In this document: one piece after another, positions 6,848 to 49,266 of the stretch
Layout of the letters: each line of letters opens with the position of its first letter
Numbering within the stretch: position 1 is the stretch's first letter
Virus record (IMG/VR): IMGVR_UViG_3300036985_009306
Span: 1-64,000 of that record
Reading direction: 5' to 3' (one strand)
DNA: 64,000 nucleotides
Origin: a virus
Translations under genes and position numbers: made by a program
Notes under the pieces: generated by a model
What the model saw: only the letters and a program-made list of their open reading frames with translations
The model's database searches: none
Told to the model about the DNA's origin: nothing

Positions 6848-6856
6848 GAGACGTAA

Positions 6857-7699: not shown

Positions 7700-7712
7700 G
7701 ATAGAAACATCT

Positions 7713-9005
7713 ATGTTCTCTTTAATAGTGAGTGTTAAAGATAAAAGAACGTTCAATTCGGTATTATTGCCTTCATTGAATTATCTTCATGAGTATTTAC
7801 GCAATCATCAACTTCCTCACATACAATTAATACCTATTTATGATGGTAATAAAAGTATAACAAAAAATTATAATAAAGGTTTAGAACAAAGTTTGTGGAA
7901 AATTAAATTTTTTATACATGAAGATGTAGATATTAAAGATACTCAAATTCCTCTATTTATAAAAGTCTATTCTTTGTTTAATCTGTTTCCAGATACTGGA
8001 TTGATTGGTTTAGTAGGTACAACAGAGAACTCTCCTGGGTTTTGGTGGAATTGTAGTAGAAACTCTATTATGGGTCATGTATTATGTTGTAATGAATATT
8101 GGAAATGGGATATTGATGAAATTTATAGAGATGTGAATGTTGTTGATGGTATGTTTATGGCAACTAATACAGATATAAAGTTCTCTGAAGACATAGATGG
8201 TTTTCATTTATATGATAGCGATTATTCAAATACAATTAGAAAAGCTGGACTTAAAGTAAAAGTTTTGACACATTTAGTAGATCATAGAGCAACATATAAA
8301 GACTTGTCAAAAGTAAATATAGATTATTTTAATAAGAAGTGGAATCTTTTTTCAAATCTTGTAGAATTAAAGAAACTTGAAGCTCAGCATAAAGAAGCTT
8401 ATGATGAAGTAATAACTCGGAATTTATATCGTATTAGAGAAGAAGATCTCGAGAATAAAGATGTTTTGGATCTTGGAGCAAATAATGGTTGTTTTACTTT
8501 ATTAGCGAAATACTATAAAGCTAAAAAAATTATTGCTGTTGAATCTAATATTGCAACTTTTGAAGTCTTGTCAAAAAACACAAAAGATTTAGATATTGTT
8601 CTTATAAATAAAGCTGCTTCTTCAAAAAGTGGTGAACGAGTAACATTGGGTAGACAATCAGATTATAGCACTATCGATGGTCGTTGTTATGTTGTTCCAA
8701 ATTCTGTAGGTGAAATAGAAACTATATCTTTAAATGATTTAGTTAAAATGTTTGATGGAAATATTGTTTTAAAAATTGATGTGGAAGGATCTGAATTTGA
8801 TATAATTGAAGGAGCATCAATTGAAACTTTAAAGAGATGTTCTACTATACTAATGGAAATTCATCAAGATATGGGAGCTGTTTTGGGCAAAACAAATATT
8901 ATTGAAGGATTAAAAACACATTTAAAAAATATTGGGTTTACAGAAGTATGGAAAAATGAAGCTTATAATGTTAATCTTGTTCGTTTTGACTTAATAGAAA
9001 ATTAA
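7713..9005 (+). CDS. Glycosyltransferase / FkbM methyltransferase fusion
   Basis: 430 residues. The first 200 residues (MFSLIVSVKDKRTFNSVLL, FFIHEDVDI, VVDGMFMATN) resemble the GT-A-like domain of StrF-type proteins, with HEDVD as the likely DXD equivalent. Residues about 245-420 are an FkbM-type SAM methyltransferase: LDLGANNGCFTLLAKYY is the SAM-binding glycine loop, and VLKIDVEGSEFDIIEGA is the family hallmark. FkbM enzymes O-methylate sugars or polyketides. The gene lies 13 bases after the GT17 gene and 3 bases before a paralogous FkbM fusion. A sugar-adding and then O-methylating role in the same glycan is inferred. Confidence 0.82.
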   Translation: MFSLIVSVKDKRTFNSVLLPSLNYLHEYLRNHQLPHIQLIPIYDGNKSITKNYNKGLEQSLWKIKFFIHEDVDIKDTQIPLFIKVYSLFNLFPDTGLIGLVGTTENSPGFWWNCSRNSIMGHVLCCNEYWKWDIDEIYRDVNVVDGMFMATNTDIKFSEDIDGFHLYDSDYSNTIRKAGLKVKVLTHLVDHRATYKDLSKVNIDYFNKKWNLFSNLVELKKLEAQHKEAYDEVITRNLYRIREEDLENKDVLDLGANNGCFTLLAKYYKAKKIIAVESNIATFEVLSKNTKDLDIVLINKAASSKSGERVTLGRQSDYSTIDGRCYVVPNSVGEIETISLNDLVKMFDGNIVLKIDVEGSEFDIIEGASIETLKRCSTILMEIHQDMGAVLGKTNIIEGLKTHLKNIGFTEVWKNEAYNVNLVRFDLIEN

Positions 9006-9008
9006 AAC

Positions 9009-11036: not shown

Positions 11037-11046
11037 AGGATTAATT

Positions 11047-24514: not shown

Positions 24515-24636
24515 TAATATTATATTTACGTTTATCACATAGGAGCAAAAATGCATAAACATTCTAATAACTGTCAGATGTGCAAAATTTATTCAAGCAT
24601 TGAAACTTTGAAATTGTCACCAAAACAAAGAGCTGA
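24503..24636 (+). repeat. Duplicated gene-start block, copy A
   Basis: These 134 bases cover the end of the 23924 gene, the intergenic bases, the Shine-Dalgarno and start codon of the 24551 gene, and its first 28 codons. They recur at 25201-25334. Within them, bases 24541-24556 (AGGAGCAAAAATGCAT) are in the reverse orientation relative to copy B. Confidence 0.95.
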
Positions 24637-25174
24637 GTTAGAACAAATAGATATAGAGAATAATAAGAGAGTTGACACGACAGAACAGAAAGAAATTAAA
24701 AAGAAGTATGATAAAGTAGTTAGAGATATGAAAGAATGGGCTAAAACAACAGGACTTGAATTTAGACACAACGTACCGTTGCCTGGCATTCTTCCTGAGT
24801 TTGTAGTAAAAAATATTATGTTTGACACTCCTGAAAATGAAAAAATCTTGAAGAATTTTATACCAGAGCAATTGAATGAATATGAGTATTTTGATGCAAG
24901 TATGCAAAGAAGTGAAGAAAAGACTTTGGAGCTTATACGAAAACTGACAGATGCAAGACCTATTAGCAAGAAACTTAAACCCGTTTTACAAGAAATTTTC
25001 AAAGATGCAACTATAAGAGTACCAACTGGTGTTTTATCAAATAATATAATAGAAATTAAGACACCTGGTAGATTTAAACTTTTTAGGATTTTTATAAAAG
25101 GTCATCCTCAATATAGAAACGGAATTGATATTTTACCACAAGTTGAAGAAATTATACAAACATTAAATGGATAG
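24551..25174 (+). CDS. Hypothetical protein, 207 aa
   Basis: ATG 24551 with AGGAG at 24541-24545. The N-terminus HKHSNNCQMCKIYSS has CxxC and His residues that may bind metal. The middle is a charged helix (RAELEQIDIENNKRVDTTEQ), and the C-terminus is alpha/beta (GRFKLFRIFIKGHPQYRNG, IDILPQVEEIIQTLNG). No family is recognised. Its ribosome-binding and start region is duplicated downstream with a 16-bp inversion. It stops at TAG, after which the same frame continues for 44 codons through a Lys-rich and then hydrophobic stretch. Confidence 0.65.
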   Translation: MHKHSNNCQMCKIYSSIETLKLSPKQRAELEQIDIENNKRVDTTEQKEIKKKYDKVVRDMKEWAKTTGLEFRHNVPLPGILPEFVVKNIMFDTPENEKILKNFIPEQLNEYEYFDASMQRSEEKTLELIRKLTDARPISKKLKPVLQEIFKDATIRVPTGVLSNNIIEIKTPGRFKLFRIFIKGHPQYRNGIDILPQVEEIIQTLNG

Positions 25175-34091: not shown

Positions 34092-35150
34092 ATGAATATG
34101 AAAATTACAGTAAGCATTCCATTTTATGCACAAGATAGTGGTGGAATAATGAGACAAACAACTTTAGCCAAAAAGCTTAATAAATTGTGGACTGTAGAAG
34201 TTCCTAAATATTTAACTACAAGTGGTGGTGTCAATCAAATGTATGATGTAGCATGCAATTTGAAAAAGAAATATGATGTTCATTTGAGAATTCAAACTTT
34301 GAACCCAAAGTTAGATTATTCAAAAATAGATTTTGAAGTACCATATAGTGTAGGGCTGACAGATTCTACATTTCCTGAGTCTGACATTGTAATAACTTAT
34401 TCAGACAATCCTTATACAGATATTTTAACCAGTCTTCCTCAGGTAAAAAAAGTTTTGATTTATATGTTAAGTTATGGTATGTGTCTTGAACGAGAAAGGA
34501 AAAATGTTTTAAATCCTAAAGTTACTGTAATGAGCAGCACTATTAGAACTCAGAGATTAATTGAAAAAGAGGGTGTTAAATGTCATTATGTAGGTTTTGG
34601 ATTAGACATGAATTTTTTTTATGAAAATCCATCTATTAAAAGAGAGAGATATGCAGCTCTTTTATATCATTATTCACTTGATAAACAGTATGAGTTGGGA
34701 GTAAAAGTATGTGATAATTTGTACGAGCAAAATTTAATTAATGGAACTATTACTTTTGGAACATCAAAAGAGTATACAAATTTTAAACATCCAAAGTTGT
34801 TAATTAAGAATTATCTTGATGCAACACATGAACAAGTGAGAGAAGTTTTTAACAAATGTAGTGTTTTTGTTATGCCTTCAAGAACTGAAGGATTAAATTT
34901 GACACCAATAGAGTCAACTCTATGTGGTTGTCCAGCTGTTATTTGTGATGGTGCAATAGGTGATGTGTTTCTTGATGGTAAAACATGTCTTATTGCAGAA
35001 AAAGATAATTTTTCAGATATTTTAGAGAAGACAAAAGAATTGTTATCTAATTCGACTTATTCTGTTGTTTTTAAAAATAATATTCAATCTTTATTATCAA
35101 AATTTACTTGGGGAAATACAATTTCTAATATAGAAAGAGTTTTAAAATGA
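34092..35150 (+). CDS. Glycosyltransferase family 4, 352 aa
   Basis: ATG 34092 (or ATG 34098); neither has a strong Shine-Dalgarno. The GT-B protein has an N-terminal domain (KITVSIPFYAQDSGGIMRQT, SDIVITYSDNPYTDI) and a C-terminal domain with SVFVMPSRTEGLNLTPIEST, the EX7E nucleotide-sugar motif of GT4. The following CGCPAVICDGAIGDVF binds the sugar nucleotide. It retains donor specificity unknown. First gene of the second glycan block; overlaps the next ATG by 4 bases. A retaining transferase acting in the cytoplasm is inferred from the family. Confidence 0.85.
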   Translation: MNMKITVSIPFYAQDSGGIMRQTTLAKKLNKLWTVEVPKYLTTSGGVNQMYDVACNLKKKYDVHLRIQTLNPKLDYSKIDFEVPYSVGLTDSTFPESDIVITYSDNPYTDILTSLPQVKKVLIYMLSYGMCLERERKNVLNPKVTVMSSTIRTQRLIEKEGVKCHYVGFGLDMNFFYENPSIKRERYAALLYHYSLDKQYELGVKVCDNLYEQNLINGTITFGTSKEYTNFKHPKLLIKNYLDATHEQVREVFNKCSVFVMPSRTEGLNLTPIESTLCGCPAVICDGAIGDVFLDGKTCLIAEKDNFSDILEKTKELLSNSTYSVVFKNNIQSLLSKFTWGNTISNIERVLK

Positions 35151-36568
35151 TAGATTTTATAGATATAGGGTGCGGTACAGGGGGTTCAATAGAGTGGGCT
35201 AAAACTAAATTTGGTGGTTCTACTCATCTTGGTATAGATAATAGAGAGAAAGAAGTTAAGGAAGCTACAAAAAATGGGTATAATGTTACACTTGCTGATA
35301 TTACAAGTGAAGATGTAGTTTTGCCACAATGTCGATATATTACAATGTTGCACGTTCTTGAGCATTTGAAGAATGAGGAAGATGTTGAAAAAGTAATTAA
35401 AAAAGCTGTCAATGCTGCAAGTGAATTTGTTATTATAAGATCGCCTTCTTTTGATTCCATAGAATATCTACAATTATTAGGTTTTAGACTTACTTGGACA
35501 AATTGGATCGGTCATCCAACAGCAGTGACAACAGACATGTTAAAAATGATTACAGATAAATTAGGATTTAAAGCAGAAACAGGACATTTGATGCCTGTAT
35601 TAAATTCTGTTTCAAATGAAATAGTTCCTATTTCTTCTCCAGTAGATACTATTGTTTATGATCCTTCTGTTCTGGAAGCAAAAAAGTTTGTTGAATTTGT
35701 TGATGTCTATAGAGAAGTTTATTATATCATAAATATAGGAACATCATTTTTAAAACAAATTAAAGAATCACTTAATAATTCATCTTCAGAGTATTATTTA
35801 GCTCCAAAAACAACATATTTATCTGCAGAATATTATATTGATTTGATAAAAAACAACATACCATTTTCTTTTGCAAGATATGGTGATGGTGAACTGATAA
35901 TAATGTTTAATTATAAATCAGTCATAGGTAGAGACATAGGAGATATGATAAAGTCTATAGAACCTATGAAACAAATTTTTAGAAATCATTATGATTATTT
36001 TCATTGTAAATTAAATTGTACATTTCATACACATTCATTAAAATGTTTCGGGGTTGATATAGACGAAGTATGCAAGTTTATGATTGAGACTTGTCCAGAT
36101 ATGCCATTTTATGATGGTGAAATTTGGCAAGGGCTTTCTTTTAGTGGAAAAATAGAACAATTAACAAGAGAATTAAATTTATATACACCGGTATTCATAG
36201 GCGGTAAACATTTATCTAACATTCAGTATCTTAATGGAATAACTAATATGGAATTAATTACAGTACATGATAGAAAAGCATGGGATGATTTTGAAAATAT
36301 TAAACAACAGATACGACAAAAGATAGAATCTGGTAGAAGAATGTTTTGTTTTTCTATGGGATATGCAGGAAAAATAATGATCGATGAACTTTATTCAGAA
36401 ACTAGAGGCAAATGTTTTATGATAGATTTTGGAAGTTTATGGGATCCATATTGTGGTGTTCTTTCACGAAATGGAATGAGAAATGTTGGGTTTCAAAAAT
36501 TTCAATCTTTTACTAAATATAAATTACCATTATCTGTTTCACTTGAAGATTATTTTAGTAGAACATAA
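35147..36568 (+). CDS. SAM methyltransferase / GT-D glycosyltransferase fusion
   Basis: 473 residues, ATG 35147 overlapping the upstream stop. Residues 1 to about 150 are a class I methyltransferase (IDIGCGTGGSIEWAK, LHVLEHLKNEEDVEK). Residues about 225-465 match the GT-D fold (DUF1792-like): PFSFARYGDGELIIMFN near 238, a conserved RRMFCFSMGYAGKIMIDELY and FMIDFGSLWDPYCGVLSR. GT-D enzymes were first described as glucosyltransferases of serine-rich repeat adhesins. The fusion links methylation with sugar transfer. Confidence 0.75.
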   Translation: MIDFIDIGCGTGGSIEWAKTKFGGSTHLGIDNREKEVKEATKNGYNVTLADITSEDVVLPQCRYITMLHVLEHLKNEEDVEKVIKKAVNAASEFVIIRSPSFDSIEYLQLLGFRLTWTNWIGHPTAVTTDMLKMITDKLGFKAETGHLMPVLNSVSNEIVPISSPVDTIVYDPSVLEAKKFVEFVDVYREVYYIINIGTSFLKQIKESLNNSSSEYYLAPKTTYLSAEYYIDLIKNNIPFSFARYGDGELIIMFNYKSVIGRDIGDMIKSIEPMKQIFRNHYDYFHCKLNCTFHTHSLKCFGVDIDEVCKFMIETCPDMPFYDGEIWQGLSFSGKIEQLTRELNLYTPVFIGGKHLSNIQYLNGITNMELITVHDRKAWDDFENIKQQIRQKIESGRRMFCFSMGYAGKIMIDELYSETRGKCFMIDFGSLWDPYCGVLSRNGMRNVGFQKFQSFTKYKLPLSVSLEDYFSRT

Positions 36569-36583
36569 AAGGAAAAAAAGTAA

Positions 36584-37210
36584 ATGGCGAATGGAGTTTA
36601 TAAAATAACAGAAGATTTTGAAGAAGCATTATCTAAATATACTTGTTCTCCTTATGTAGTTGTGCTTGATAATATGAGTAATGCTTTATTTCTTTCATTG
36701 TATTATGAGAATATAAGAGGAAAAACCATAACTATTCCTAATAGAACTTATCCATCTGTTCCTTGTGAAATTATACATGCAGGAGGGAAAGTTAATTTTA
36801 GACATGTAGAAGGAAAAACTTTAAAAGGAGCATATTCATTGGAAGGGTCTAAAACTTGGGATAGTGCATTAAGATTCACATACAATATGTACATTCCAAA
36901 AACATTTATGTGTATAAGTTTTACAGGTCCTTATAAACATTTGAAACTTAGCAAGGGAGGTGCAATATTGACTGATGATTATATTGCATATTTATGGTTT
37001 AAAAGAGCTAGATATTCTGGCAGAAGAGAATGTTCATACCATGATGATAACTTAGATATGTTAGGATGGAACTTTTATATGATGCCTGAATTAGCTGCAA
37101 GAGGGTTGTTATTAATGAATCAGTTTTACTTAGGTGAAACACCTAAAGTTAATGAAGATCTTGAATTGCCATATCCAGATTTGTCTAAATTTGTTATCTA
37201 TCAACAATAG
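36584..37210 (+). CDS. DegT/DnrJ-like aminotransferase, short form
   Basis: 208 residues, about half the length of a full DegT/DnrJ/EryC1 enzyme. ATG 36584 follows AAAGGAAAAAAAG. It keeps the first-domain signature VVVLDNMSNALFLSLYYENI, TITIPNRTYPSVPCEIIHAG, and GPYKHLKLSKGGAILTDD, where Lys of PLP-binding type could lie. It lacks the C-terminal domain but ends cleanly with LELPYPDLSKFVIYQ. Full enzymes make amino sugars from keto-sugars using PLP. It may be a compact functional form or a subunit; whether it is active cannot be told. Confidence 0.68.
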   Translation: MANGVYKITEDFEEALSKYTCSPYVVVLDNMSNALFLSLYYENIRGKTITIPNRTYPSVPCEIIHAGGKVNFRHVEGKTLKGAYSLEGSKTWDSALRFTYNMYIPKTFMCISFTGPYKHLKLSKGGAILTDDYIAYLWFKRARYSGRRECSYHDDNLDMLGWNFYMMPELAARGLLLMNQFYLGETPKVNEDLELPYPDLSKFVIYQQ

Positions 37211-37213
37211 CAT

Positions 37214-38488
37214 ATGAAAAATGTTTTAGTATTTCCTTGTGGTTCTGAAATTGGACTTGAAGTAAATCGTGCATTAACTAATTCAACACATTTTACTTTA
37301 TTTGGAGGAAATAGTGTCAATGATCACGGAAAATATGTTTATAGAAATTATATTGCAGATCTTCCTGACATTGAAGAAAAAAATTTTATAGAAGAAATTA
37401 ACAGAGTTATAGATGAATTCAAGATTGATTTTATTATACCTTCTCATGATTCTGTAATCTTAAAAATGGCTCAAAACCAACAAAATATCAAAGCAACAAT
37501 AATTACGTCATGTGTAGAAACATGTGAAGTTTGTAGATCAAAAGCAAAGACTTATAAATTATTTGAAAAAAATATTGAAACACCCAAAGTTTATTCTTTA
37601 AAAGAAGAAATCAAATTTCCTGTTTTTTTAAAACCTGATGTGGGACAAGGAACAAAAGGGACATATAAAGCAAATAAAAAAGAAGAAATAGATTTTTATT
37701 TAAAGAAAGATTCTACATTACTTATATTAGAATATTTATCTGGGAAAGAATATACAGTTGATTGTTTTACTAATAAAAATGGAAGATTATTATTTGCTAC
37801 TGGAAGAGAAAGAATAAGAATTAATAATGGTATAAGTGTAAATTCTAAAGAATTATTTGATAATAGGTTTCAAGAAATTGCAACAATTATAAATAATACA
37901 TTGTCTTTTCAAGGTTCTTGGTTTTATCAAGTTAAAGAAAGATCTACTGATGAGCTTGTTTTAATGGAAATTGCTCCCAGAATTGCTGGAACATCTGCAT
38001 TATTTAGAGTAAAAGGAGTCAATTTTGTACAATTAAGTTTGTTTGATAAGATGGGTGTTGATGTAAGTATTTTATGCAATAATTTTGATGCTGAAATAGA
38101 TCGTGCTTTATTTTCAAGATTTTCTTCAAATGTTTGTTATGATTATGTGTATATAGATTTTGATGATACGATTATTGTAAATAATTTAGTGAATACTGAC
38201 ATTATGAAATTTCTTTATCAATCTAAAAATAATGGGAAAAAAATAGTTTTACTTTCAAAGCATAAACAAGACATCAAACAGAGTCTAAGTAATTTTTCAA
38301 TCAGTGATTTATTATTTGATGAAATAATCATTTTGAAGGATGATGAGAATAAATATGAACATATTACTGAATTAAGCTCTATATTCATTGATGATTCATT
38401 TTCTGAAAGAAAAACAATATACGACAAATTTCATATACCAGTTTTTGGATTAGATAGTATTGAATTTTTATTGCTTTGGAAAGTTTGA
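37214..38488 (+). CDS. ATP-grasp ligase / HAD-like phosphatase fusion
   Basis: 424 residues, ATG 37214 three bases after the upstream stop. Residues 1 to about 300 have the ATP-grasp layout of carbamoyl-phosphate-synthase-like proteins: NVLVFPCGSEIGLEVNRAL, IIPSHDSVILKMAQ, SKAKTYKLFEKNIETPKVY, FLKPDVGQGTKGTYKA and a metal-binding LVLMEIAPRIAGTSALF. Residues about 311-424 are HAD-like (YVYIDFDDTIIVNN with the DxDxT-type motif, SIFIDDSFSERKTIYDKF). Such fusions occur in capsule and glycan clusters, where they attach amino acids or carboxylates to sugars. The exact substrates are unknown. Confidence 0.8.
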   Translation: MKNVLVFPCGSEIGLEVNRALTNSTHFTLFGGNSVNDHGKYVYRNYIADLPDIEEKNFIEEINRVIDEFKIDFIIPSHDSVILKMAQNQQNIKATIITSCVETCEVCRSKAKTYKLFEKNIETPKVYSLKEEIKFPVFLKPDVGQGTKGTYKANKKEEIDFYLKKDSTLLILEYLSGKEYTVDCFTNKNGRLLFATGRERIRINNGISVNSKELFDNRFQEIATIINNTLSFQGSWFYQVKERSTDELVLMEIAPRIAGTSALFRVKGVNFVQLSLFDKMGVDVSILCNNFDAEIDRALFSRFSSNVCYDYVYIDFDDTIIVNNLVNTDIMKFLYQSKNNGKKIVLLSKHKQDIKQSLSNFSISDLLFDEIIILKDDENKYEHITELSSIFIDDSFSERKTIYDKFHIPVFGLDSIEFLLLWKV

Positions 38489-38493
38489 TTTAA

Positions 38494-39489
38494 ATGCAAG
38501 ATAAAAAACAAAAAAAATTCTATAAAGAATTGAGCAATATTGTACCTGTAAATCCTAAATCAATAAATTTAGAGTTAACTAATAACTGTAATTTAAGATG
38601 TATTTTTTGTCTTAATTCTTTGCATAACTTCAGAAAAAAAGGATTCATGAGTGATGAAATTTTTTACAAATTAATTAATGAAGCATCTGAGGATACAACT
38701 ATAATTATATGTGGAATAGGAGAACCAACTTTACATAATAAGTTTGATGAATATGTTACAAAATTATCTGATAAATTTAAAAACATATTTTTAGTTACCA
38801 ATGGTCACTTTGAGAACAAAAGAATAAGAACAATATTGAACTCAAATATAACAAAAGTGACTTTTTCATTAGATTTTTTTGATAAAGATGCTTATTGTTC
38901 TAATAAAAATGGCAAAATTGATAAGGTGATAAAAAATATTGAATCTTTGTTAAAATTGCGGGGTTCAAGGAACATGCCGATTTTGCAGATAAATATGTTA
39001 ATGGAAAAAGGAAAAGAAAAACAAATCAAAGATTGTTTATTGTATTTTAATGCTATTTTGGGAAAAGATGATTTTGTTTATAGCAGAAATGTTAAATCAC
39101 TTTCTGAACAAATAAAAGTTGAAACAATTGATAATTATGAAGATTGGTTAAGTCTTGAGAAAATTAAAAAGATAATTTCTAAAGATGTCAATACAGATAA
39201 GTATTTTGTAGAAAATTGGTGTAATTTTTTAGGTTTAGAAGAACCATTATCATCTAGGCAAGTATGTAGACATCCTTTTATTTATGCTATGGTATTATAT
39301 GACGGAAGAGTTGTTTTTTGTTGTATTGATTTTAATGCAAAGATGATAGCGGGTGATTTAAAGTTTGAAAGTTTGCAAGAAATATGGAATGGGAAAAAAT
39401 ATAATAATTTTAGATCGGATATGATTAATTTTAGATTTGATGCTCACCCATTATGTATAAATTGTACCGAATGGTATAAACAAAAATAA
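38494..39489 (+). CDS. Radical SAM / SPASM enzyme, 331 aa
   Basis: ATG 38494. Near residue 31 is ELTNNCNLRCIFCLNSLHNF with the CxxxCxxC cluster for the SAM-binding [4Fe-4S]. GIGEPTLHN follows as the usual GxGEPxL loop. The C-terminal CRHPFIYAMVLYDGRVVFCC and CINCTEWY segments are a SPASM-type set of cysteines for an auxiliary cluster. In glycan clusters, such enzymes epimerise, dehydrogenate or otherwise modify sugars, cofactors or peptides. No precursor peptide gene is obvious nearby. The chemistry must be anaerobic or oxygen-sensitive. Confidence 0.85.
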   Translation: MQDKKQKKFYKELSNIVPVNPKSINLELTNNCNLRCIFCLNSLHNFRKKGFMSDEIFYKLINEASEDTTIIICGIGEPTLHNKFDEYVTKLSDKFKNIFLVTNGHFENKRIRTILNSNITKVTFSLDFFDKDAYCSNKNGKIDKVIKNIESLLKLRGSRNMPILQINMLMEKGKEKQIKDCLLYFNAILGKDDFVYSRNVKSLSEQIKVETIDNYEDWLSLEKIKKIISKDVNTDKYFVENWCNFLGLEEPLSSRQVCRHPFIYAMVLYDGRVVFCCIDFNAKMIAGDLKFESLQEIWNGKKYNNFRSDMINFRFDAHPLCINCTEWYKQK

Positions 39490-39509
39490 TTATAACAGAA
39501 GGAATAAAA

Positions 39510-40256
39510 ATGCTTTGTGATGAGAAAAAATTTCTTGATAGTATGTATTCTACTTATAGACTTAAAATGTCTTCACAAAATAGGATAATTAGAGAATTAG
39601 TAATAAAAAACATCATGCCATATATTGAGATTGATAAGTTTGTAGGTTTGCAATTGGGATGTGCAGATGGATATGAGACTAAATTACTTGCTAAATTATT
39701 GAAACAATTAGATGTTCTTGAGGGTTCAACAAAATTTATTAATGATGTCCGAAAAAAAAATATATCAAAAGTTGATTTAATTTATTCATTATTTGAAGAA
39801 TTTCAAACACCAAAAGATAAAAAATATGATATTGTTTTTGCAACATTTGTGCTTGAACATGTTTTTGATCCAACTTTGTTGTTAAAAAAAATAAGAAATG
39901 TTCTTAATGAAAATGGTCTGCTTTATATTGTTGTTCCAAATGCTAGAGCATTATCACGACAATTGGCTCTTCATATGGGAATTTTAAAAAATTTATATGA
40001 GTTAACTCCAAATGATTTAGGACATGGACACAGACGTGTTTTTGATCGTAATTCTCTGAATAAATTATTAGAATCATGTAATTTTCAGACAATTGCTCAA
40101 AGTGGAATTATGTTAAAAATACTAGCTGATTTTCAAATGGATAAGCTTATTGATTCTAATATTCTTAAATCTGAACATATAAATGGGTTATATTCTCTTG
40201 GTTTAGAGCATCCTGATCTTTGTGGTGCAATTTACAGTATTTGTAAAAATGTTTGA
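39510..40256 (+). CDS. Class I SAM methyltransferase, 248 aa
   Basis: ATG 39510 with AGAAGGA upstream. FVGLQLGCADGYETKLLAK is the SAM-binding strand-loop, then YDIVFATFVLEHVFDPTLLL and ENGLLYIVVPNARALSRQL, typical of the Methyltransf_11/23 group. The final helix-rich part (GHRRVFDRNSLNKLLES) agrees. It probably methylates a sugar of the same glycan. Its stop overlaps the open frame of the GT11 gene. Confidence 0.82.
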   Translation: MLCDEKKFLDSMYSTYRLKMSSQNRIIRELVIKNIMPYIEIDKFVGLQLGCADGYETKLLAKLLKQLDVLEGSTKFINDVRKKNISKVDLIYSLFEEFQTPKDKKYDIVFATFVLEHVFDPTLLLKKIRNVLNENGLLYIVVPNARALSRQLALHMGILKNLYELTPNDLGHGHRRVFDRNSLNKLLESCNFQTIAQSGIMLKILADFQMDKLIDSNILKSEHINGLYSLGLEHPDLCGAIYSICKNV

Positions 40257-40291
40257 ACTTTTTAAATTTTCTTGTCATGAGAGAAAAGCAA

Positions 40292-41179
40292 ATGATAACA
40301 TTTAGTAATTTAGGAGCTTTTGGAAGATTAGGTAATCAATTGTTTCAATATGCGATATTATTATCAGTTGGTGCAGAAAATGATTATGAAGTAAAAATAC
40401 CGAAACTTGATGATAAAGAATGGCATGGACAAAAGTGTTTATTAAAAAATTTTAATATCAAAGCAAAGACATTAGATTGTAATGACGTAATAAAATATTT
40501 TTATAATGAATTAGAACGTTCAAAAGGTCTATATGATCCAACAGTAGGTCTATATGATCCAACAGTTTTTAATGTCCCTGACAATTCAGATTTATTTGGA
40601 TATTTTGGTGATTATCGATATTTAAAAAAACATGAAGATTTGATAATAAATGAGATGTCCCTTAAAGAGAATATTTTAGAAAAAAATAGAAAAAGGTTTT
40701 TTGAAATAAAACAAAAATATGCTGATTGTTTAATAATTTCACTTCATATAAGACGTGGTGATACTGCTTTAGATATGTATAGTAAAAAAGAAACTCTTGA
40801 AATACTTGACATTAATTCTCCTTGGCAAATATATTTCTCTAATGCAAGGAAGATGTTTGACAATAAAAAATGTAAATTTTTAGTTTTTACAGGAGGATCA
40901 CATTCTAACAATAATGAGCTTGATTATATATGGTGCAAGAGAAATTTGAAAGGTGATGAATTTATTTATTGTGATGATAATATTGATAATCCGATAGATG
41001 ATTTTGCTATGATGTACCTTTGTGACGCACATATTTTATCTGCATCATCAACATTAAGTTGGTGGGTTGGGTTTTTAGACAAAAAAAATGATAAGATTAC
41101 TATTGCACCTGAAAAATATTGGTTTTTAACAAAAGCAATGCATGAAGGATTTTATCCTGATAATTTTATTTTAGTATAA
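40292..41179 (+). CDS. GT11 alpha-1,2-fucosyltransferase-like enzyme
   Basis: The frame is open from a TTG at 40253, but ATG 40292 gives the usual opening (MITFSNLGAFGRLGNQLFQY) and has GAGAG about 9 bases upstream; 295 residues. The catalytic motif ISLHIRRGDTALDMY (HxRRGD) and the C-terminal ILSASSTLSWWVGFL (SxxSWW) define family GT11, which transfers fucose from GDP-fucose. Near residue 75 there is a tandem 7-residue repeat (GLYDPTV twice) from a 21-bp DNA duplication. It suggests a fucose or galactose-like deoxy sugar in the product; no GDP-fucose synthesis gene is seen here. Confidence 0.82.
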   Translation: MITFSNLGAFGRLGNQLFQYAILLSVGAENDYEVKIPKLDDKEWHGQKCLLKNFNIKAKTLDCNDVIKYFYNELERSKGLYDPTVGLYDPTVFNVPDNSDLFGYFGDYRYLKKHEDLIINEMSLKENILEKNRKRFFEIKQKYADCLIISLHIRRGDTALDMYSKKETLEILDINSPWQIYFSNARKMFDNKKCKFLVFTGGSHSNNNELDYIWCKRNLKGDEFIYCDDNIDNPIDDFAMMYLCDAHILSASSTLSWWVGFLDKKNDKITIAPEKYWFLTKAMHEGFYPDNFILV

Positions 41180-41182
41180 ATT

Positions 41183-41854
41183 ATGAAATTAGAAGACATA
41201 AGAATACATTGTATAGGAGATAGTCATGTTTCAGTTTTTACAGGAAAAGATACAATAAGCAAAGGTTGGCCTTGTCCACAAGATTCAATACAATATTTTC
41301 ATACTTATTGGCTTGGACCAGTATTAGCATATAATCTTTATTCTGTTGGACATCAATCAAGGTTGAATTTGTTTAATGTTTTAGAAAGTATTTCTAAAAG
41401 TGATTATGTGATGCTTTGTGCAGGAGAAATTGATTGTAGGATGCATTTGATTAGACAAAAAGAATTACAAAACAAATCATTAGAAGAAATTGTACAAGAA
41501 TGTGTATGTAGATATTTTCAAGTGATTTTAGAAATAAAAAATATGGGATTTAAAGTGATAATATGGGGAGTACCAGGTACAGCAAATATTGATTGTTTTG
41601 AATTAAAAGATAAAAATACTTTTCCTCATTATGGCACGTATAAGGAAAGAAATCAGGCTACAAAAATTTTTAATAACAAAATAGAATATTTATGTAAATT
41701 AAATGATGTTTTATTTTTATCTATTTTTGATGATCTAATTGATGACAATGGAAAAACTAAAATAACAGAATATTATATGGATGAGTTTCATGTAAGTCAG
41801 AAAGTAATGCCTTTGATAATTAGTAAACTTAAAAATGTTTTAAACAAAGAATGA
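41183..41854 (+). CDS. SGNH/GDSL-type hydrolase, 223 aa
   Basis: ATG 41183. The motif set IHCIGDSHVSVFTG (block I with the candidate Ser), YVMLCAGEIDCRMHL (block III-like), and YYMDEFHVSQKVMP (D-x-x-H block V) is that of SGNH hydrolases, which remove or transfer acyl groups on glycans. No signal peptide is present. In glycan clusters such proteins act as O-acetylesterases or acyltransferases. Its stop overlaps the next frame. Confidence 0.72.
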   Translation: MKLEDIRIHCIGDSHVSVFTGKDTISKGWPCPQDSIQYFHTYWLGPVLAYNLYSVGHQSRLNLFNVLESISKSDYVMLCAGEIDCRMHLIRQKELQNKSLEEIVQECVCRYFQVILEIKNMGFKVIIWGVPGTANIDCFELKDKNTFPHYGTYKERNQATKIFNNKIEYLCKLNDVLFLSIFDDLIDDNGKTKITEYYMDEFHVSQKVMPLIISKLKNVLNKE

Positions 41855-41862
41855 GATGTTTT

Positions 41863-42564
41863 ATGAATAAAGAACAATATGAAAATCAATTTATACTTTT
41901 TAAAGAGAAATCTAAATTGGATGAAAGATTTGTTGTTGAAGAAACAAATAAATACATGATATTGAATGAAGACACTTACAAGTGTTCATATGATCAACAT
42001 TACATATATCATACTGCTTGGGCTGCACGTAGAATTTGTGAAAATAAACCCAAAAAACATGTAGATATTTCATCTTCTATTTATTTTTCAACTATTGTTT
42101 CTGCTTTTGTACCTGTAGATTTTTTTGATTATCGTCCTGTTGAACTTGATTTAGAAAACTACAATTCTGGAAAAGCTGATTTGACATGTTTACCTCATTC
42201 TGATAATAGTATACAGTCTTTATCTTGTATGCATGTTTTAGAGCATATTGGTTTAGGAAGATATGGAGATGCAATAGATCCTTTAGGAGATATTGTTGCT
42301 GCAAATGAATTAAAAAGAGTATTGGCTCCTGGAGGAATTCTTTATATGGTTTTACCAGTAGCATCAATAAATAAGATATGTTTTAATGCTCATAGAATTT
42401 ATTCTTTTAAAAGCGTACTTTCTCTTTTTAATGGATTGGTTTTAAAAAGTAATACTTTACTTTCATTATTTTCTAATAAAAGTGCTTTTATAAAAAATGC
42501 TTCAGAAAATGACTATAACCAACAAACTTATGGTTGTGGTTGTTTTGAGTTTCAAAAAATATAG
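41863..42564 (+). CDS. DUF268-type SAM methyltransferase-like protein
   Basis: ATG 41863 gives 233 residues; ATG 41851, overlapping the upstream TGA, adds MRCF and cannot be excluded. The protein has HVDISSSIYFSTIVSAFV, FFDYRPVELDLENYNSGKAD, LSCMHVLEHIGLGRYGDAID and LKRVLAPGGILYMVLPV, the pattern of DUF268 (a methyltransferase-like family found in O-antigen loci). No classical GxGxG loop is present, as usual for the family. Likely modifies a sugar in the same pathway. Confidence 0.72.
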   Translation: MNKEQYENQFILFKEKSKLDERFVVEETNKYMILNEDTYKCSYDQHYIYHTAWAARRICENKPKKHVDISSSIYFSTIVSAFVPVDFFDYRPVELDLENYNSGKADLTCLPHSDNSIQSLSCMHVLEHIGLGRYGDAIDPLGDIVAANELKRVLAPGGILYMVLPVASINKICFNAHRIYSFKSVLSLFNGLVLKSNTLLSLFSNKSAFIKNASENDYNQQTYGCGCFEFQKI

Positions 42565-42575
42565 AAAAATTTGTT

Positions 42576-43085
42576 ATGCCTGCAACTATAGAAACTTATT
42601 GTATAGCATATGAATTTTCAACTAAATCCACTTTTCTTGAATTGGGTGGATTTTTAGGTGATGGAATATTGAAAGCACTTAATGTAGGTTTTAAAAATGT
42701 GATTTCTGTAGAATTATCAGAAGATTTATGTATGTTTTTAAAAAAAAGGTTTGTAAGTGATAAAAAAGTTATGATTGTACAAGGGGATGTTGAAAATGTA
42801 TTACCCGACATAATTAAAGACTTGAATGAACCATGTGCTATTATGTTAGATGCGCATTATAGTGGAAATGGTACAGTACGAGGTATTCATGATGACCCCA
42901 TAATTGAAGAACTTAGCATAATTGGTAGTAGTAAATTTAAAAATCATGTTTTAATGATAGATGATATGAGACTTCTTAATGATGAACAAATAAGAAAAAA
43001 AGTGCTTGAAATAAATCAAAATTATACTTTTATGTATGCTGAAGGTCACGTGAAAGATGATGTTCTCATCTGTTACATGAAATAA
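42576..43085 (+). CDS. SAM methyltransferase-like protein, 169 aa
   Basis: ATG 42576. STFLELGGFLGDGILKAL resembles the SAM loop, VISVELSEDLCMFLKKRF the second strand with its acidic end, IVQGDVENVLPDIIKDL the third, and AIMLDAHYSGNGTV and VLMIDDMRLLNDEQI complete the fold. The Asp pair near 90 and 125 may bind metal, as in small-molecule O-methyltransferases. It is shorter than most; the substrate is unknown. Confidence 0.68.
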   Translation: MPATIETYCIAYEFSTKSTFLELGGFLGDGILKALNVGFKNVISVELSEDLCMFLKKRFVSDKKVMIVQGDVENVLPDIIKDLNEPCAIMLDAHYSGNGTVRGIHDDPIIEELSIIGSSKFKNHVLMIDDMRLLNDEQIRKKVLEINQNYTFMYAEGHVKDDVLICYMK

Positions 43086-43089
43086 TAAA

Positions 43090-46000
43090 ATGAATATATC
43101 TATTGTAATCCCAGTTCATAATCAATGTCAATTGTTGCAAAATTGCATAAACTCTATTTTTGAAAAAACAAATACTGAGTTTCAAATTATTATTGTAAAT
43201 GATGGTTCTGATGAACAAACAACGAAATTTTGTCATCAACTTTATGAAACAAAGAAAATCAAGAAACTAGTTCATAATCCTGTTGCAAAAGGATTTAGTG
43301 AAAGTTGCAATCAAGGAATTGTTGCAAGTCAAGATTCTGATTATATTTGTCTTTTAAATTCTGACACAAAAATAGTCACAAAAAATTGGTTAGAAAAAGT
43401 GATTTTATGTGGAGAAAGTGATGAAAAAATAGGATGTCTTGGAGTATTATCTAATTGTGCAACTTGGCAATCTATAGGTAAAAACTTTGTCAAAGAAAGT
43501 GAAATACAAAAATATGGTGATTTGATCGTTTCTCTTTCAGAAAATCAATATCCCAGAACTAATTTGATTAATGGATTTTGTTTTTTTATTAAAACTAATG
43601 TTCAAAAACAAGTTGGACTTTTAGATGTTCAAGTTTTCCCTCATTATGGAAGTGAAGATGATTTTGCTTTAAGAATTAGACAAAAAGGATATGAGCTGGC
43701 AATTGTTGATAATGTCTATGTCTATCACTATTCTAATCAGTCTTATAAAGAAAAAAGAGAAAAAATAATGCATTATTCTTTGCCCAATTTATTAAAGAAA
43801 TGGGGAAACAAAAGAATAGTTCAAGATACAAATGTGTCAAATAATTCATTAAATTATTTAAAAAAGAAAATCAATGAATATTTTTCTTCTATGTCTTGTG
43901 ACATTATTATTGTTGTTCATAATGCTTTATCATATCTTAAAAAATGTATAGAAAGTATTCAAAAATACACTGATTATGAGCATAATATCTTTATTGTAGA
44001 TAATAACTCAAATGAAGAAACTAAATCTTATTTAAAAAGTCTTAAACATGTTCAAATTATTTCAAATAAGAAAAACTATGGTTTTGGTTATTCTAACAAT
44101 CAAGCAATAAGAAAATCAAAATCTAAATATGTATGTTTTTTAAACAGTGATACGATAGTTACGAAGAACTGGTTGACAAATTTGATTGAGTGTTTAGAAA
44201 AAAATAATGCAGGAATTGTAGGTCCAATTTCAAATGAAGTATCATCTGAACTACAAAAGGTAGATTATCTTTATGATGATAATGATGAAAATATTCAAGA
44301 TTTTGCAGAAAAAAGATACTTACAATATAAAGACAAAGTTGCAGAGTATAACAGACTTATTGGCTTTTGCATGGTCATGAAGAGAGAAGTCTTACAGAAG
44401 ACAGGATGTTTTGATGATAGATATAGATTTAATTTTGAAGATGATGATTTATGTTTAAGAACTGTAGAACAGGGATATAGACTTTATTGTTCATTTGGTG
44501 TATTTATATATCATTATGCAGGACAATCATTTAAAGAAAAATCAATAAACGTAGACTATAATAATATGCTTGAAACTAGTAGAGACTTATACAAAAAGAA
44601 ATGGTATGAAACTCAAAAAATAAAGTTTATTAATGAAAAAAAAGATAATATTTCAATAATCTATCTTTTAGAGTCAAATTCACCAAGTGGTGGAGTTAAA
44701 GTTGTTTTTGAACATGCAAATAGACTTAAAGATAGAGGTTATAATGTAAAGATATATTGTAGAAGAAATGAAACAGGAACAAATTGGTTTGATTTATATA
44801 CACCTATTGTCTATTTTTCTGAACCTCAAGAAGTTCCTCATTGTGACATTGCAATAGGTACCTATTTTACTACACTTCCTATTCTCCAAAAGATTAATAG
44901 TTCTATTAAAATTCATCTTTGTCAAGGATATGAAGCTTCTCTTTATGACAAAGTCAAAGAAAAAATGTTAATTTCTACTATACAAGATAATTATAAAAGT
45001 ATTAAAGAAAAAATAGTAGTCTCTAAATGGTTAAAAGAAATAATTGATAAAGAATACAAAATAGATTCTTATTATGTACCAAATGGTCTTGATCAATATG
45101 TGTTTTCATTTTCAAAACATCAAAGAAATAGAACACCGAGAATTCTTATTGTAGGAAATTATGGGCTTCAAATTAAAGGAGTAGCAATAGCTTTAAAAGC
45201 TGCAGAAGAATATTTAAAAGCTCATTCTCGTAATGAACCAATAATGCATCGTCAAGTTTATACAGCAATAAAAATTGTTAATAAAAAAGTTCAAGGAACG
45301 ATTGTAAGACTTGCATCTGAAAAAACTCAATTTGATGATAAATGTGAATTTCATGATATGTCAAAGATGACACAAGATGAGATTGCTAAAGTTTATGAAT
45401 CTTGTGATGTAACTCTTTGTGCCTCTTATAAAGTTGAAGGTTTTAGTTTACCACCTTTAGAATCTATGGCTAGTGGAACTCCTGTAATAACAACAGACTG
45501 TGGGGGTATAAATGATTATGCAATAAATAATGAAAATTCAATTATTGTACCTCCTGGTGATGTAAAAGCATTACAACAAGGTCTTGAGATGGTATTATCT
45601 AATAACGAGTTGTATTCTCGTTTGGTAGAGAATGGTTTAAAAACAGCCAATGAATATCCATGGTATAAACAAATAGATATACTTGAGGGATTTCTGCATA
45701 GGCTCTATTATAAACAAATTGCTCTGAGTAGAGAACAGCTGTCTGTATGTATGATTGTAAAGAATGAGCAATTGTGTTTAGCAAATTGTTTGGAATCTAT
45801 TAAGGGTCTTGCAAACGAAATAATAATTGTAGATACTGGTTCTACGGATGACACTATAAGAATAGCTAAAAGTTTTGGAGCAAAAATTTTTCATTTTGAG
45901 TGGATTGATGATTTCTCTGCTGCTAGAAATTTTGCTCTAGAAAAAGTGACTCAGTCTTGGACTTTTATTCTGGATGCTGATGAAGTAATAAGTCCAGTAG

Positions 46001-46962
46001 ATATATCAAAAATAAGAAATTTATTGAAACAAAATAAAGCTTATAGTTTTGTTTCTAGAAATTATGTTAATTCTACAAATATTGAAGATGTAGTTTGTTG
46101 TAAAGGTGAATACAAAAATGAAGAGAAAGATTTTGTTGGATGGTGTAGATCAGGTAAAGTTAGATTATTTCCTACGACAAAAGGTGCAAAGTTTAATGGG
46201 CAAATACATGAGCTAGTAGAAGATTCATTAGAAGAATTAAATATTAAAATTGAGATGTGTGATATTCCAGTTCATCATTATGGTTATCTTAAACAAAATA
46301 AAGAAAAAGGTGAGATATATTTAAAGTTGGGGAAGAATAAAGCAAAAGTTGGCGATAAGAAAGCACTTTATGAATTAGCATCGCAATATATGGCACTTAA
46401 TAATTATGATGAATCACTTGTTGTTTGGAGAAGATTGTTGTCAATAGAACCTAAAAATTATGATTATTTGTCACATATAGGAACTGTATTTAACTTGTTA
46501 AATGATTATGATCAAGCAGAGAAATATTTTCTTAAGTCTATTTCTATATGTCAATCTGAATATGCTTTTAAGCATTTAGCGATTTGTTATTCAAAATTAG
46601 ATAGATATAATGATGCATATTTAACGTTTAAAAAGATTGTTTATAAGACTGATGATTTGAAAACAATGGCAGATTTTGCATATTGTTGTAATACATTAAA
46701 GAAATATGACGAAGCGATTTCTATTTTAGAAAAATGTTTGAAAATTAATAGAGAAATAACTGTGTCTTGGGGGCTGTTAGAATCAGCTTATAATGAGAAG
46801 GGAATAGAGTTTGCAAGTGCAAATAACCTTAATCAAGCATTGGTGATGTTCAAAAAAGCTTTAGATTTAGATTGTAGATTTGAAGCAGCTCAAACAAATC
46901 TAAATGTGGTCAATAAACTTTTAAGTACTGGGTCATTTTCTAAAAGTTTTATCAAAGTTTAA
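43090..46962 (+). CDS. GT2-GT2-GT4-GT2-TPR fusion glycosyltransferase, 1290 aa
   Basis: ATG 43090. GT2 module 1 occupies about residues 1-235 (NISIVIPVHNQCQLLQNCI, CLLNSDTKIVTKNW, GSEDDFALRIRQKGYEL). Module 2 is near 270-500 (CDIIIVVHNALSYLKKCIE, VCFLNSDTIVTKNW, NFEDDDLCLRTVEQGY). A GT-B family 4 module lies near 520-875 (SNSPSGGVKVVFEHAN, YKVEGFSLPPLESMASGTPV). Module 4 near 883-1090 is a SunS-like GT2 (LSVCMIVKNEQLCLANCLES, IIIVDTGSTDDTIRIAK, ILDADEV). The last 200 residues are TPR-like helices (YELASQYMALNNYDESLVVW). This is a one-chain glycan assembly enzyme; the SunS/TPR end suggests a protein acceptor. Confidence 0.85.
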   Translation: MNISIVIPVHNQCQLLQNCINSIFEKTNTEFQIIIVNDGSDEQTTKFCHQLYETKKIKKLVHNPVAKGFSESCNQGIVASQDSDYICLLNSDTKIVTKNWLEKVILCGESDEKIGCLGVLSNCATWQSIGKNFVKESEIQKYGDLIVSLSENQYPRTNLINGFCFFIKTNVQKQVGLLDVQVFPHYGSEDDFALRIRQKGYELAIVDNVYVYHYSNQSYKEKREKIMHYSLPNLLKKWGNKRIVQDTNVSNNSLNYLKKKINEYFSSMSCDIIIVVHNALSYLKKCIESIQKYTDYEHNIFIVDNNSNEETKSYLKSLKHVQIISNKKNYGFGYSNNQAIRKSKSKYVCFLNSDTIVTKNWLTNLIECLEKNNAGIVGPISNEVSSELQKVDYLYDDNDENIQDFAEKRYLQYKDKVAEYNRLIGFCMVMKREVLQKTGCFDDRYRFNFEDDDLCLRTVEQGYRLYCSFGVFIYHYAGQSFKEKSINVDYNNMLETSRDLYKKKWYETQKIKFINEKKDNISIIYLLESNSPSGGVKVVFEHANRLKDRGYNVKIYCRRNETGTNWFDLYTPIVYFSEPQEVPHCDIAIGTYFTTLPILQKINSSIKIHLCQGYEASLYDKVKEKMLISTIQDNYKSIKEKIVVSKWLKEIIDKEYKIDSYYVPNGLDQYVFSFSKHQRNRTPRILIVGNYGLQIKGVAIALKAAEEYLKAHSRNEPIMHRQVYTAIKIVNKKVQGTIVRLASEKTQFDDKCEFHDMSKMTQDEIAKVYESCDVTLCASYKVEGFSLPPLESMASGTPVITTDCGGINDYAINNENSIIVPPGDVKALQQGLEMVLSNNELYSRLVENGLKTANEYPWYKQIDILEGFLHRLYYKQIALSREQLSVCMIVKNEQLCLANCLESIKGLANEIIIVDTGSTDDTIRIAKSFGAKIFHFEWIDDFSAARNFALEKVTQSWTFILDADEVISPVDISKIRNLLKQNKAYSFVSRNYVNSTNIEDVVCCKGEYKNEEKDFVGWCRSGKVRLFPTTKGAKFNGQIHELVEDSLEELNIKIEMCDIPVHHYGYLKQNKEKGEIYLKLGKNKAKVGDKKALYELASQYMALNNYDESLVVWRRLLSIEPKNYDYLSHIGTVFNLLNDYDQAEKYFLKSISICQSEYAFKHLAICYSKLDRYNDAYLTFKKIVYKTDDLKTMADFAYCCNTLKKYDEAISILEKCLKINREITVSWGLLESAYNEKGIEFASANNLNQALVMFKKALDLDCRFEAAQTNLNVVNKLLSTGSFSKSFIKV

Positions 46963-48201: not shown

Positions 48202-49266
48202 ATGAATATTAATGTAGATGAAAACAAAACAGATTTAAGTGAGCAATTGATTTCAAGAAAAAAATCTGAGATCAAAAGACAACCCGGAGTAGGGTTAGAT
48301 TGTGGTACAATGTTTACTGTTAGTGCAAGTTATTATAATGGTAATACATCATTCGCAAGTGAAAGAAATGCATTTTTTGATATTGAAAATAGTTCAATTT
48401 CAAAAAGTATGTTATCAAAATTAAAAGCAAATTTTGTAGAATCATCTGATAAAAAAAGTTTGTATGTTATTGGTAATGAAGCTCTATTTATTGCAGACTT
48501 TTTTAACAAGGATTGCAGACGTCCTTTTTCAAAAGGCGTTCTTTCAACTAGAGAAACAGAAGCTATTTTTATTATAAAGATGATTTTAAAAAATTTGGTT
48601 AGAGAACCAGTTGTTGAAAACGAAAAACTATTCTTTTCTGTTCCAGCTGATCCTATAGATGCTGATTTTAATAATATCTATCATCAAAACATTATAAAGT
48701 CGTTTTTGATGTCTTTTGGGTATAACCCTCAACCAATGAATGAAGCATTTGCAATTATATGGTCAGAATTAGAAGATGAGAAATATTCTGGGATGGCTTT
48801 GTCATTTGGTGCAGGTAGTGTAAATATTGCTCTTTCTCTTTATGGAATATCAAATAGTAATCAACAATTTTGTCTTGCAAGGTCAGGAGATTATATAGAT
48901 TCGAATGCAGCGCAAGCATTGGGTGTTAAAACATCTAGAATAACAACAATAAAGGAAGCAGGTTTAGATCTTTTGAATCCTAAGAATAGAGAAGAAACAG
49001 CAATAAAAATTTATTATGAAAATTTAATATCATATACTTGTAATGCAATAGAAAAAAAATTTAATAATACACAAGATGTACCTAATTTTAAAGAACCTAT
49101 ATCTATTGTAATTAGTGGTGGAACATCAAAAGCAAACAATTTTGATAAGTTGTTTGAACAAGAAATAAAGAGTAAGAGTTTGCCATTTTCTATAAAGCAA
49201 GTAAAAAAGGCTTCAGATCCTTTGAATGTTGTTGCTAAAGGTTGTTTATTGAATGCATTGGAATGA
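48202..49266 (+). CDS. Actin/ParM-like ATPase, 354 aa
   Basis: ATG 48202 with GAAAGGAAAA. The actin-fold nucleotide motifs are present in order: phosphate 1 near residue 30 (PGVGLDCGTMFTVSASYYNG), connect/phosphate 2 near 200 (GMALSFGAGSVNIALSLYG), and adenosine near 303 (ISIVISGGTSKANNFDKLF). The length suits ParM/MreB-type proteins. Actin-like proteins of phages and plasmids form filaments that move or anchor DNA or virions; an Hsp70-like chaperone role is less likely given the length. The N-terminal 25 residues before the first strand are charged and may bind a partner. No obvious centromere-like repeat was seen nearby. Confidence 0.78.
   Translation: MNINVDENKTDLSEQLISRKKSEIKRQPGVGLDCGTMFTVSASYYNGNTSFASERNAFFDIENSSISKSMLSKLKANFVESSDKKSLYVIGNEALFIADFFNKDCRRPFSKGVLSTRETEAIFIIKMILKNLVREPVVENEKLFFSVPADPIDADFNNIYHQNIIKSFLMSFGYNPQPMNEAFAIIWSELEDEKYSGMALSFGAGSVNIALSLYGISNSNQQFCLARSGDYIDSNAAQALGVKTSRITTIKEAGLDLLNPKNREETAIKIYYENLISYTCNAIEKKFNNTQDVPNFKEPISIVISGGTSKANNFDKLFEQEIKSKSLPFSIKQVKKASDPLNVVAKGCLLNALE

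Follow-up and report, generated by a model that had tools for sequence, protein, structure and literature searches.

A putative glycan-assembly island built around a compact DegT-family protein in the tail module of a large uncultured myovirus

Bases 1-64000 of the 192,143-base uncultured virus record IMGVR_UViG_3300036985_009306 (the whole 64,000-nucleotide stretch is called the window below) carry, at 34092-46962, eleven contiguous open reading frames (ORFs) on the + strand. Together these probably constitute a mobile glycan-assembly island in the tail module of a myovirus, predicted to make and N-acylate a 4-amino-6-deoxy sugar that would be built into a glycan on the virion or on the host surface. 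The gene set, its insertion, a compact DegT family with conserved lysine and aspartate residues, and the recurrent partners of that family are read directly in the sequence. The ORFs are tightly packed, with junctions of -4, 15, 3, 5, 20, -4, 3, -4, 11 and 4 bases, in order; the initial annotation had described an eleven-gene glycan block with overlaps and short gaps, and it recurs here with the same coordinates, strand and junctions (-4 to +20). A tail sheath encoded at 56358 (PHROG 2839) indicates a contractile tail and hence a tailed phage, a large myovirus, whose closest described relatives are LR745208 (a 485-kb uncultured phage) and Tunturiibacter phage Tunturi_5, with phage G farther off; the genome that hosts the block is that of a large, non-T4-like myovirus. 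The record may be incomplete, which bears on every absence stated for it below.

The tail gene order is preserved across related contigs, which were picked via alignment of the tail sheath. The distance from the end of the homologue of the protein encoded at 29892-32657 to the start of the gene for the actin-like protein Volactin is 1.1-3.6 kb (median 1.6) in 18 IMG/VR relatives, and that to a tail-terminator-like gene is 0.9-2.7 kb in 12 relatives lacking a Volactin match, vs. 15.5 and 17.7 kb, respectively, in the window (end points projected from local alignments). Because the slot measures 0.9-3.6 kb in 30 relatives and 15.5 kb here, the block is, by gene order, an insert relative to related phages. 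Its GC content, 27.4% vs. 30.8% in the whole record, is also the lowest for a stretch of that length; among 359 segments of equal length just 4 are as low, each of them overlapping the block. Its neighbors in the tail module include Ig-like and Fn3-like virion genes. Small glycosyltransferase-like ORFs lie at the slot of the 13-kb block in two of the relatives (L207:474-2980 and L200:3462-4139), so that genes may have landed here repeatedly. Volactin itself is a conserved tail-module gene in this large-phage lineage, between tail protein and tail terminator; neither the window's Volactin nor the radical SAM protein of the block has close relatives in IMG/VR.

Most of the eleven genes are of common types. 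Of particular interest is the key gene of the block, which encodes a putative nucleotide-sugar aminotransferase of only 208 amino acids (the compact DegT; Table 1). In a profile search of the PDB, GDP-perosamine synthase ranks first, the match falling into two segments, 7-60 and 111-182, on either side of a shortened middle; the same search found no counterpart of the C-terminal domain of full-size DegT enzymes. K118 of the compact DegT aligns with K186 of GDP-perosamine synthase, the Schiff-base lysine that is mutated in structure 3dr4. K118, D93, S112, F113, G125 and G126 are invariant in an alignment of 34 sequences, and all six are also kept in the 31-33% identical proteins of S-SCSM2R and LR756502, members from a cyanophage and a huge phage; D93 is assigned as the aspartate that binds pyridoxal phosphate (PLP) from its place in a DA motif rather than from a structure. 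With an AlphaFold2 model (pLDDT 83, pTM 0.83; residues 149-162 poor), Foldseek put 3dr4 on top, and all 50 best matches were DegT-type enzymes. The model covers the large domain only, and not the two domains and 360-400 amino acids of the usual fold-type I DegT enzyme. Modeling and alignment together lead us to read the protein as a large-domain-only DegT enzyme, and its family and context point to a nucleotide-sugar aminotransferase.

The short DegT of the initial annotation is not peculiar to this genome; it belongs to a conserved compact family with at least 513 confirmed relatives in an IMG/VR scan. The best 80, which are those that could be read from each scan, are 76-81% identical to it over essentially their full length. 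Lengths run from 195 to 234 amino acids across the 85 members compared, apart from one of 321 for which the mechanical start call lies too far upstream; truncation of a longer gene is ruled out as an explanation by these at least 513 relatives and the uniform shortness of the members. Proteins of the set are at least 70% identical (median 81%), and divergence at four-fold sites, pooled over pairs below 90% protein identity, is 0.635 vs. approximately 0.657 expected at saturation. Recent horizontal spread as the source of the high identity is rejected because synonymous sites are saturated, and the gene is, on this evidence, old and constrained. In the same contig pairs DegT is more conserved than PhoH, exonuclease, dUTPase and all partner genes compared, a comparison inflated by the selection of loci for DegT similarity, of which the synonymous-site result is independent; the window and LR756511, a pair not selected in this way, share 68% identity in DegT and 30% in Volactin. 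Among 85,000 bacterial and archaeal genomes 11 loci were found, making the family rare there at the sensitivity used; that scan relied on two short patterns that may miss members, and cellular genomes hold at least these 11. Genome bins contain five loci of 68-73% identity, at least one of which (L104) resembles a phage contig.

The neighbors of the compact DegT were identified by grouping mechanically called ORFs into BLAST clusters. Of 80 loci, 75 (50 of 55 groups formed at 95% nucleotide identity) have WbqC or a PglD-like hexapeptide acetyltransferase, such as that at L073:12909-13484, -2 to +4 genes away; among the five exceptions, L035 and L044 carry a second compact DegT in the same island, followed by PglD, with three other genes between the two copies. 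In a sister subfamily, B, of approximately 195 amino acids, found in cyanophage and other viral contigs as well as in Prochlorococcus and Marinimicrobia genomes, the next gene encodes GDP-mannose 4,6-dehydratase (GMD) in 33 of 86 loci and 27 of 62 groups, with the reference GMD for these calls verified against the PDB. The compact DegT gene, as called, is thus found beside a predicted GMD or N-acetyltransferase gene in many independent contigs. The window's record contains no PglD or WbqC homologue. In L072, the gene after the compact DegT encodes an ATP-grasp/HAD protein 43% identical to that at 37214 in the window, in the same arrangement. A radical SAM gene follows DegT in S-SCSM2R and two close contigs. 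A homologue of the methyltransferase at 39510 adjoins an ATP-grasp/HAD gene in L194 (49% and 48% identity for the two proteins, respectively), and 39510-like methyltransferases are fused as a domain to GNAT in 11 WbqC-type compact-DegT loci, with one further free-standing copy. A cassette of compact DegT, WbqC, a GH43/32-like protein and a GNAT/methyltransferase fusion recurs in many phage contigs (L036:11886-14010, L063, L067 and others), with WbqC as a candidate alternative N-acyl partner.

When the concatenated block was used as a query against phage records, none shared the full gene set, and DegT alone matched at high identity. The proposal in the initial annotation that the eleven genes form one pathway therefore holds in part: they are one insert relative to related phages, but in other phages the genes are separately distributed, and the only pairs that recur elsewhere are DegT with ATP-grasp (L072) and methyltransferase with ATP-grasp (L194). 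Because only those two pairs recur, the data support one modular island and not a fixed pathway; the eleven genes are, as far as their homologues tell, drawn from a shared pool, and the modular assembly does not imply a single fixed pathway.

GMD yields GDP-4-keto-6-deoxymannose, which a DegT aminotransferase converts to GDP-perosamine, and a hexapeptide acetyltransferase N-acetylates GDP-perosamine. The initial annotation found no genes for nucleotide-sugar synthesis, but the DegT-like protein is one by family and context, and a search of the record beyond the window gave an RmlB-like dehydratase (103181), an RmlD/epimerase-like short-chain dehydrogenase/reductase (SDR; 185313) and a class II aldolase (173682). 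The RmlB-like SDR matches PDB entry 6bi4 with an E-value of 1.5e-56. From these families and neighborhoods we infer the order of the steps, the nucleotide and the sugar, what the ATP-grasp protein takes as substrate, what the radical SAM protein does and where the glycan is placed, as follows. A 4-keto-6-deoxy nucleotide sugar would be supplied by the host GMD or by the record's RmlB-like SDR, and transamination by the compact DegT would turn it into a 4-amino-4,6-dideoxy sugar that most likely resembles perosamine. The ATP-grasp/HAD protein would then acylate the new amine, in the slot held elsewhere by a PglD-like acetyltransferase or WbqC, presumably adding a carboxylate other than acetyl. 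The methyltransferases, the SGNH protein and the radical SAM protein would decorate the sugar, the last possibly by a BtrN-type oxidation of an alcohol to a ketone that would open a further site for amination or tailoring. The GT4, GT11, GT-D-like and multi-domain fusion glycosyltransferases (GTs) would assemble the chain, whose acceptor would be a tail or decoration protein of the virion or else the host surface. The presence of GT11 suggests GDP-fucose as a donor; the host would have to supply it, since the record yielded no homologue of Fcl or GMD.

It is quite possible, though short of probable, that the compact DegTs form a virus-centered family, found across hundreds of unrelated phages, of active fold-type I sugar aminotransferases pared down to the large domain and approximately 200 residues, constrained beyond DNA-metabolism genes and serving as a hub with a swapped N-acylating partner (PglD, WbqC or ATP-grasp) to produce the phage's own N-acyl-perosamine-like sugar. 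Several findings weigh against the scheme. The C-terminal domain and approximately 40 residues between the conserved regions are missing, so that activity is not assured, and the model's TM-score against full-size enzymes (TMq) is just approximately 0.57, with low confidence at residues 149-162. The pairing of DegT with ATP-grasp is known from one other contig only. The RmlB-like SDR has STTDVY where 6bi4 has STDEVY, which makes its dehydratase activity doubtful, and no GMD homologue was found in the possibly incomplete record. The radical SAM protein at 38494 resembles BtrN only distantly, and a tungsten-cofactor maturase model of NCBIfam scores higher (119.8 bits), yet far under the cut-off of 380.

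Given the missing domain, the compact DegT could alternatively be an accessory protein that binds PLP, or one whose catalysis has changed (such as a 3-dehydrase, or a subunit completing another enzyme), kept for structural or regulatory reasons. Its 208 amino acids compare with 359-445 in the solved DegT enzymes matched, and the extreme constraint could stem from binding a partner. We nevertheless consider this alternative rather unlikely: the Schiff-base lysine, the invariant aspartate and the GG loop are present in every member compared, very divergent ones included, the 3-dehydrase ColD has His188 where the compact DegT has K118 (titles of 3b8x and 3gr9), and genes of the family adjoin those for GMD and N-acetyltransferases, which act just before and just after a 4-aminotransferase. 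The initial annotation had also entertained a modified sugar or a sugar-peptide. A modified (amino) sugar is probable; a sugar-peptide or RiPP-like (ribosomally synthesized and post-translationally modified) product, with the radical SAM/SPASM and ATP-grasp proteins acting on a peptide, seems very improbable to us. Peptide maturation does use both kinds of protein, and several peptide maturases are among the weak NCBIfam matches, but no maturase model reaches its cut-off, gaps of at most 20 bp across the eleven genes leave no precursor-peptide ORF, the radical SAM protein has BtrN as its nearest solved relative and matches the four-cysteine auxiliary cluster of that enzyme, and the radical SAM-DegT neighborhood in S-SCSM2R consists of glycosyltransferases.

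Transfer of the sugars to phage DNA, as hypermodified bases, rather than to virion proteins or the host surface is to be considered as well, since phage GTs are known to glycosylate DNA (PMC12619734; Shewanella phage Thanatos, PMC12838424). The GT4, GT11, multi-GT fusion, DegT and N-acyl partners belong, however, to the surface-polysaccharide type, the insert's neighbors in the tail module include virion genes of the Ig-like and Fn3-like kinds, and none of the block's matches is to a PHROG of the DNA glucosyltransferase type, all of which leaves a DNA target with scant probability. We give equally little credence to a host capsule fragment, passively acquired and with no coherent phage function; the insert is AT-rich, its relatives are heterogeneous and its gene set is little conserved in other phages, but all eleven ORFs are intact and tightly packed with intact catalytic motifs, and the DegT gene is one of a family that persists in hundreds of viral contigs, its synonymous sites saturated. 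Assembly of an N-acylated amino sugar for a surface glycan remains the reading that we favor.

Among known systems, GDP-perosamine synthase (3bn1, 3dr4, 3dr7) resembles the compact DegT most, as its best match by profile and fold with the Schiff-base lysine kept, and the product of the GMD that adjoins subfamily B is the substrate of that synthase; the synthase has approximately 370 amino acids, compared with a 208-residue protein known here from sequence, lacking the C-terminal domain and some 40 residues of the middle. In mimivirus, the DegT aminotransferase L136 and the N-acetyltransferase L142 make UDP-Vio4NAc (PMC9614988), so that there too a virus encodes an aminotransferase and an N-acetyltransferase for its own glycans; L136, however, has 352 amino acids and a typical type I fold, belongs to a eukaryotic virus, and has a proven substrate where ours is predicted. 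The T4-like cyanophages S-SCSM1 and P-SSM2 carry cell-wall and lipopolysaccharide (LPS) gene sets (PMC9602691). In these and in S-SCSM2R, where radical SAM adjoins the compact DegT, GTs are clustered with nucleoside diphosphate (NDP)-sugar genes, and the window's block is likewise a phage-borne GT cluster accompanied by NDP-sugar tailoring genes, as in cyanophage-type glycan/LPS islands; gene order and family members differ, and the window's island lies in a non-T4-like myovirus tail module. Flavobacterium phage vB_FspM_immuto (MW353175, immuto26A_90-102) has a compact DegT, immuto26A_99, of 77% identity within a GT block; after it come genes for a "pilin glycosylation protein" and an NDP-sugar epimerase, a different partner from that in the window, and homologues of the ATP-grasp, radical SAM and multi-GT fusion proteins were not detected in it. 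Phage islands that hold GTs, DegT, radical SAM and methyltransferases exist (S-SCSM2R, immuto), and the earlier description of the block as having unusual chemistry for a phage was overstated. BtrN, the 2-deoxy-scyllo-inosamine dehydrogenase of butirosin synthesis, oxidizes an alcohol to a ketone and has a four-cysteine auxiliary cluster (PMC9012708). Its pathway, which includes the DegT aminotransferase BtrR, and its single auxiliary cluster with four cysteines recall the block; its substrate is a cyclitol alcohol, and shared chemistry with its remote relative at 38494 is predicted by family likeness.

Taken whole, the block is a new member of an already known type, the phage glycan islands, in which the compact enzyme and the ATP-grasp substitution appear as a novel variant; we found no description of a compact viral DegT family or of its partner swapping in the open-licence papers searched. 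The chemistry of such islands is mostly guessed from family names, and the compact DegT gives a handle on it, as one small, highly conserved protein that marks glycan islands across hundreds of viral contigs and has few, swappable partners. Its retention with little change in hundreds of unrelated phages suggests that production of amino sugars by phages themselves, by means of a reduced enzyme, is widespread. Should it prove active, it would reveal how small a part of the DegT fold suffices for a sugar aminotransferase, and phage amino sugars could be tested directly with a single small protein and enzymatically prepared GDP- and dTDP-sugars.

Domain calls for the block (Table 1) were judged against the curated Pfam cut-offs, with motifs read separately in the translations. 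Most of the family assignments in the initial annotation stand above those cut-offs, while GT-D, SGNH and the last methyltransferase fall below them and HAD is without a Pfam hit.

Table 1. Genes of the glycan block and the two genes bounding the insert
Feature	Position	Strand	Evidence
Tail-module protein, conserved; left bound of insert, outside block	29892..32657	+	homologue upstream of Volactin or tail terminator in 30 related contigs, LR745208, Tunturi_5
GT4 glycosyltransferase	34092..35150	+	Pfam Glyco_trans_1_4 46.9 bits; E-x7-E motif EGLNLTPIE
Fusion, N-terminal S-adenosylmethionine (SAM) methyltransferase and tentative C-terminal GT-D-like	35147..36568	+	Methyltransf_25 above cut-off
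Compact DegT-family nucleotide-sugar aminotransferase, putative, 208 aa; key gene	36584..37210	+	Pfam DegT (PF01041) 37.3 bits vs. cut-off 19.8
ATP-grasp ligase and HAD fusion	37214..38488	+	ATPgrasp_Ter 56.2 bits, above Pfam cut-off; DFDDT, DDS HAD motifs
Radical SAM/SPASM (twitch) enzyme, BtrN-like	38494..39489	+	Radical_SAM and SPASM; CX3CX2C at 32
Class I methyltransferase, possible sugar O-methylation	39510..40256	+	Methyltransf_23 63 bits
GT11 (fucosyltransferase family)	40253..41179	+	Glyco_transf_11 52.7 bits; PHROG 2644 glycosyltransferase; GRLGNQ, HIRRGD motifs
SGNH-like hydrolase or acyltransferase, tentative	41183..41854	+	Lipase_GDSL_2 16.2 bits vs. cut-off 32.9; GDS, GEID, DEFH (DxxH) motifs
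DUF268 methyltransferase-like protein	41851..42564	+	DUF268 56 bits
Methyltransferase-like protein, weak	42576..43085	+	RrnaAD 20.8 bits vs. cut-off 24
GT2-GT2-GT1-GT2-TPR fusion glycosyltransferase	43090..46962	+	three GT2 stretches, Glycos_transf_1, TPR, all above cut-offs
Volactin (actin-like); right bound of insert, outside block	48202..49266	+	PF25216 244.9 bits; order kept in relatives

The GT-D match at the C-terminus of the protein at 35147 is weak (15.6 bits vs. a cut-off of 27), with RYGDGE at residue 244. The C-terminal, HAD half of the protein at 37214 gave no Pfam hit, with the two HAD motifs present; the protein scores 115.7 bits with a PRK12767-type, carbamoyl-phosphate-synthase-like NCBIfam model, short of the equivalog cut-off of 390, and a structure model from three sequences (pTM 0.37) was too poor for a fold search. 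In the radical SAM protein, for which BtrN scores E 6e-13, the cysteines of the N-terminal motif are C32, C36 and C39, and C258, C276, C321 and C324 align with the auxiliary cluster of BtrN. Homologues of the protein at 42576 in cyanophages are 27-35% identical and annotated as methyltransferase or hypothetical. Scans for promoters and terminators gave no surplus over shuffles, and a defense-gene reading (PADLOC) was rejected, as it amounted to generic radical SAM (viperin) and methyltransferase similarity only.

A second glycan block lies in the window at 3050-12744, with a 1265-amino-acid protein of four GT2 domains and a methyltransferase domain, along with a GT17 protein, GT2_5+FkbM and FkbM+GT2 fusions and a GT2+GT9-like protein; it resembles the first block in its gene families. 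Proteins starting with MHKYSDNCPFCKI(Y/F), or nearly so, are encoded at 24551-25174 and at 65795-71021 and 104133-104768 of the record (G000), several in a row after the 1176-amino-acid protein at 62008 and in further copies elsewhere. A second radical SAM/SPASM protein is encoded at 180686-181699 of the record (L014), outside any GT block. Encoded at 176098-178177 (L014) is a small FAD/NAD-binding protein, whose GxGxxG start resembles that of UDP-galactopyranose mutase and which has no sequence match in the PDB, near a 329-amino-acid protein with a HAD-like stretch.

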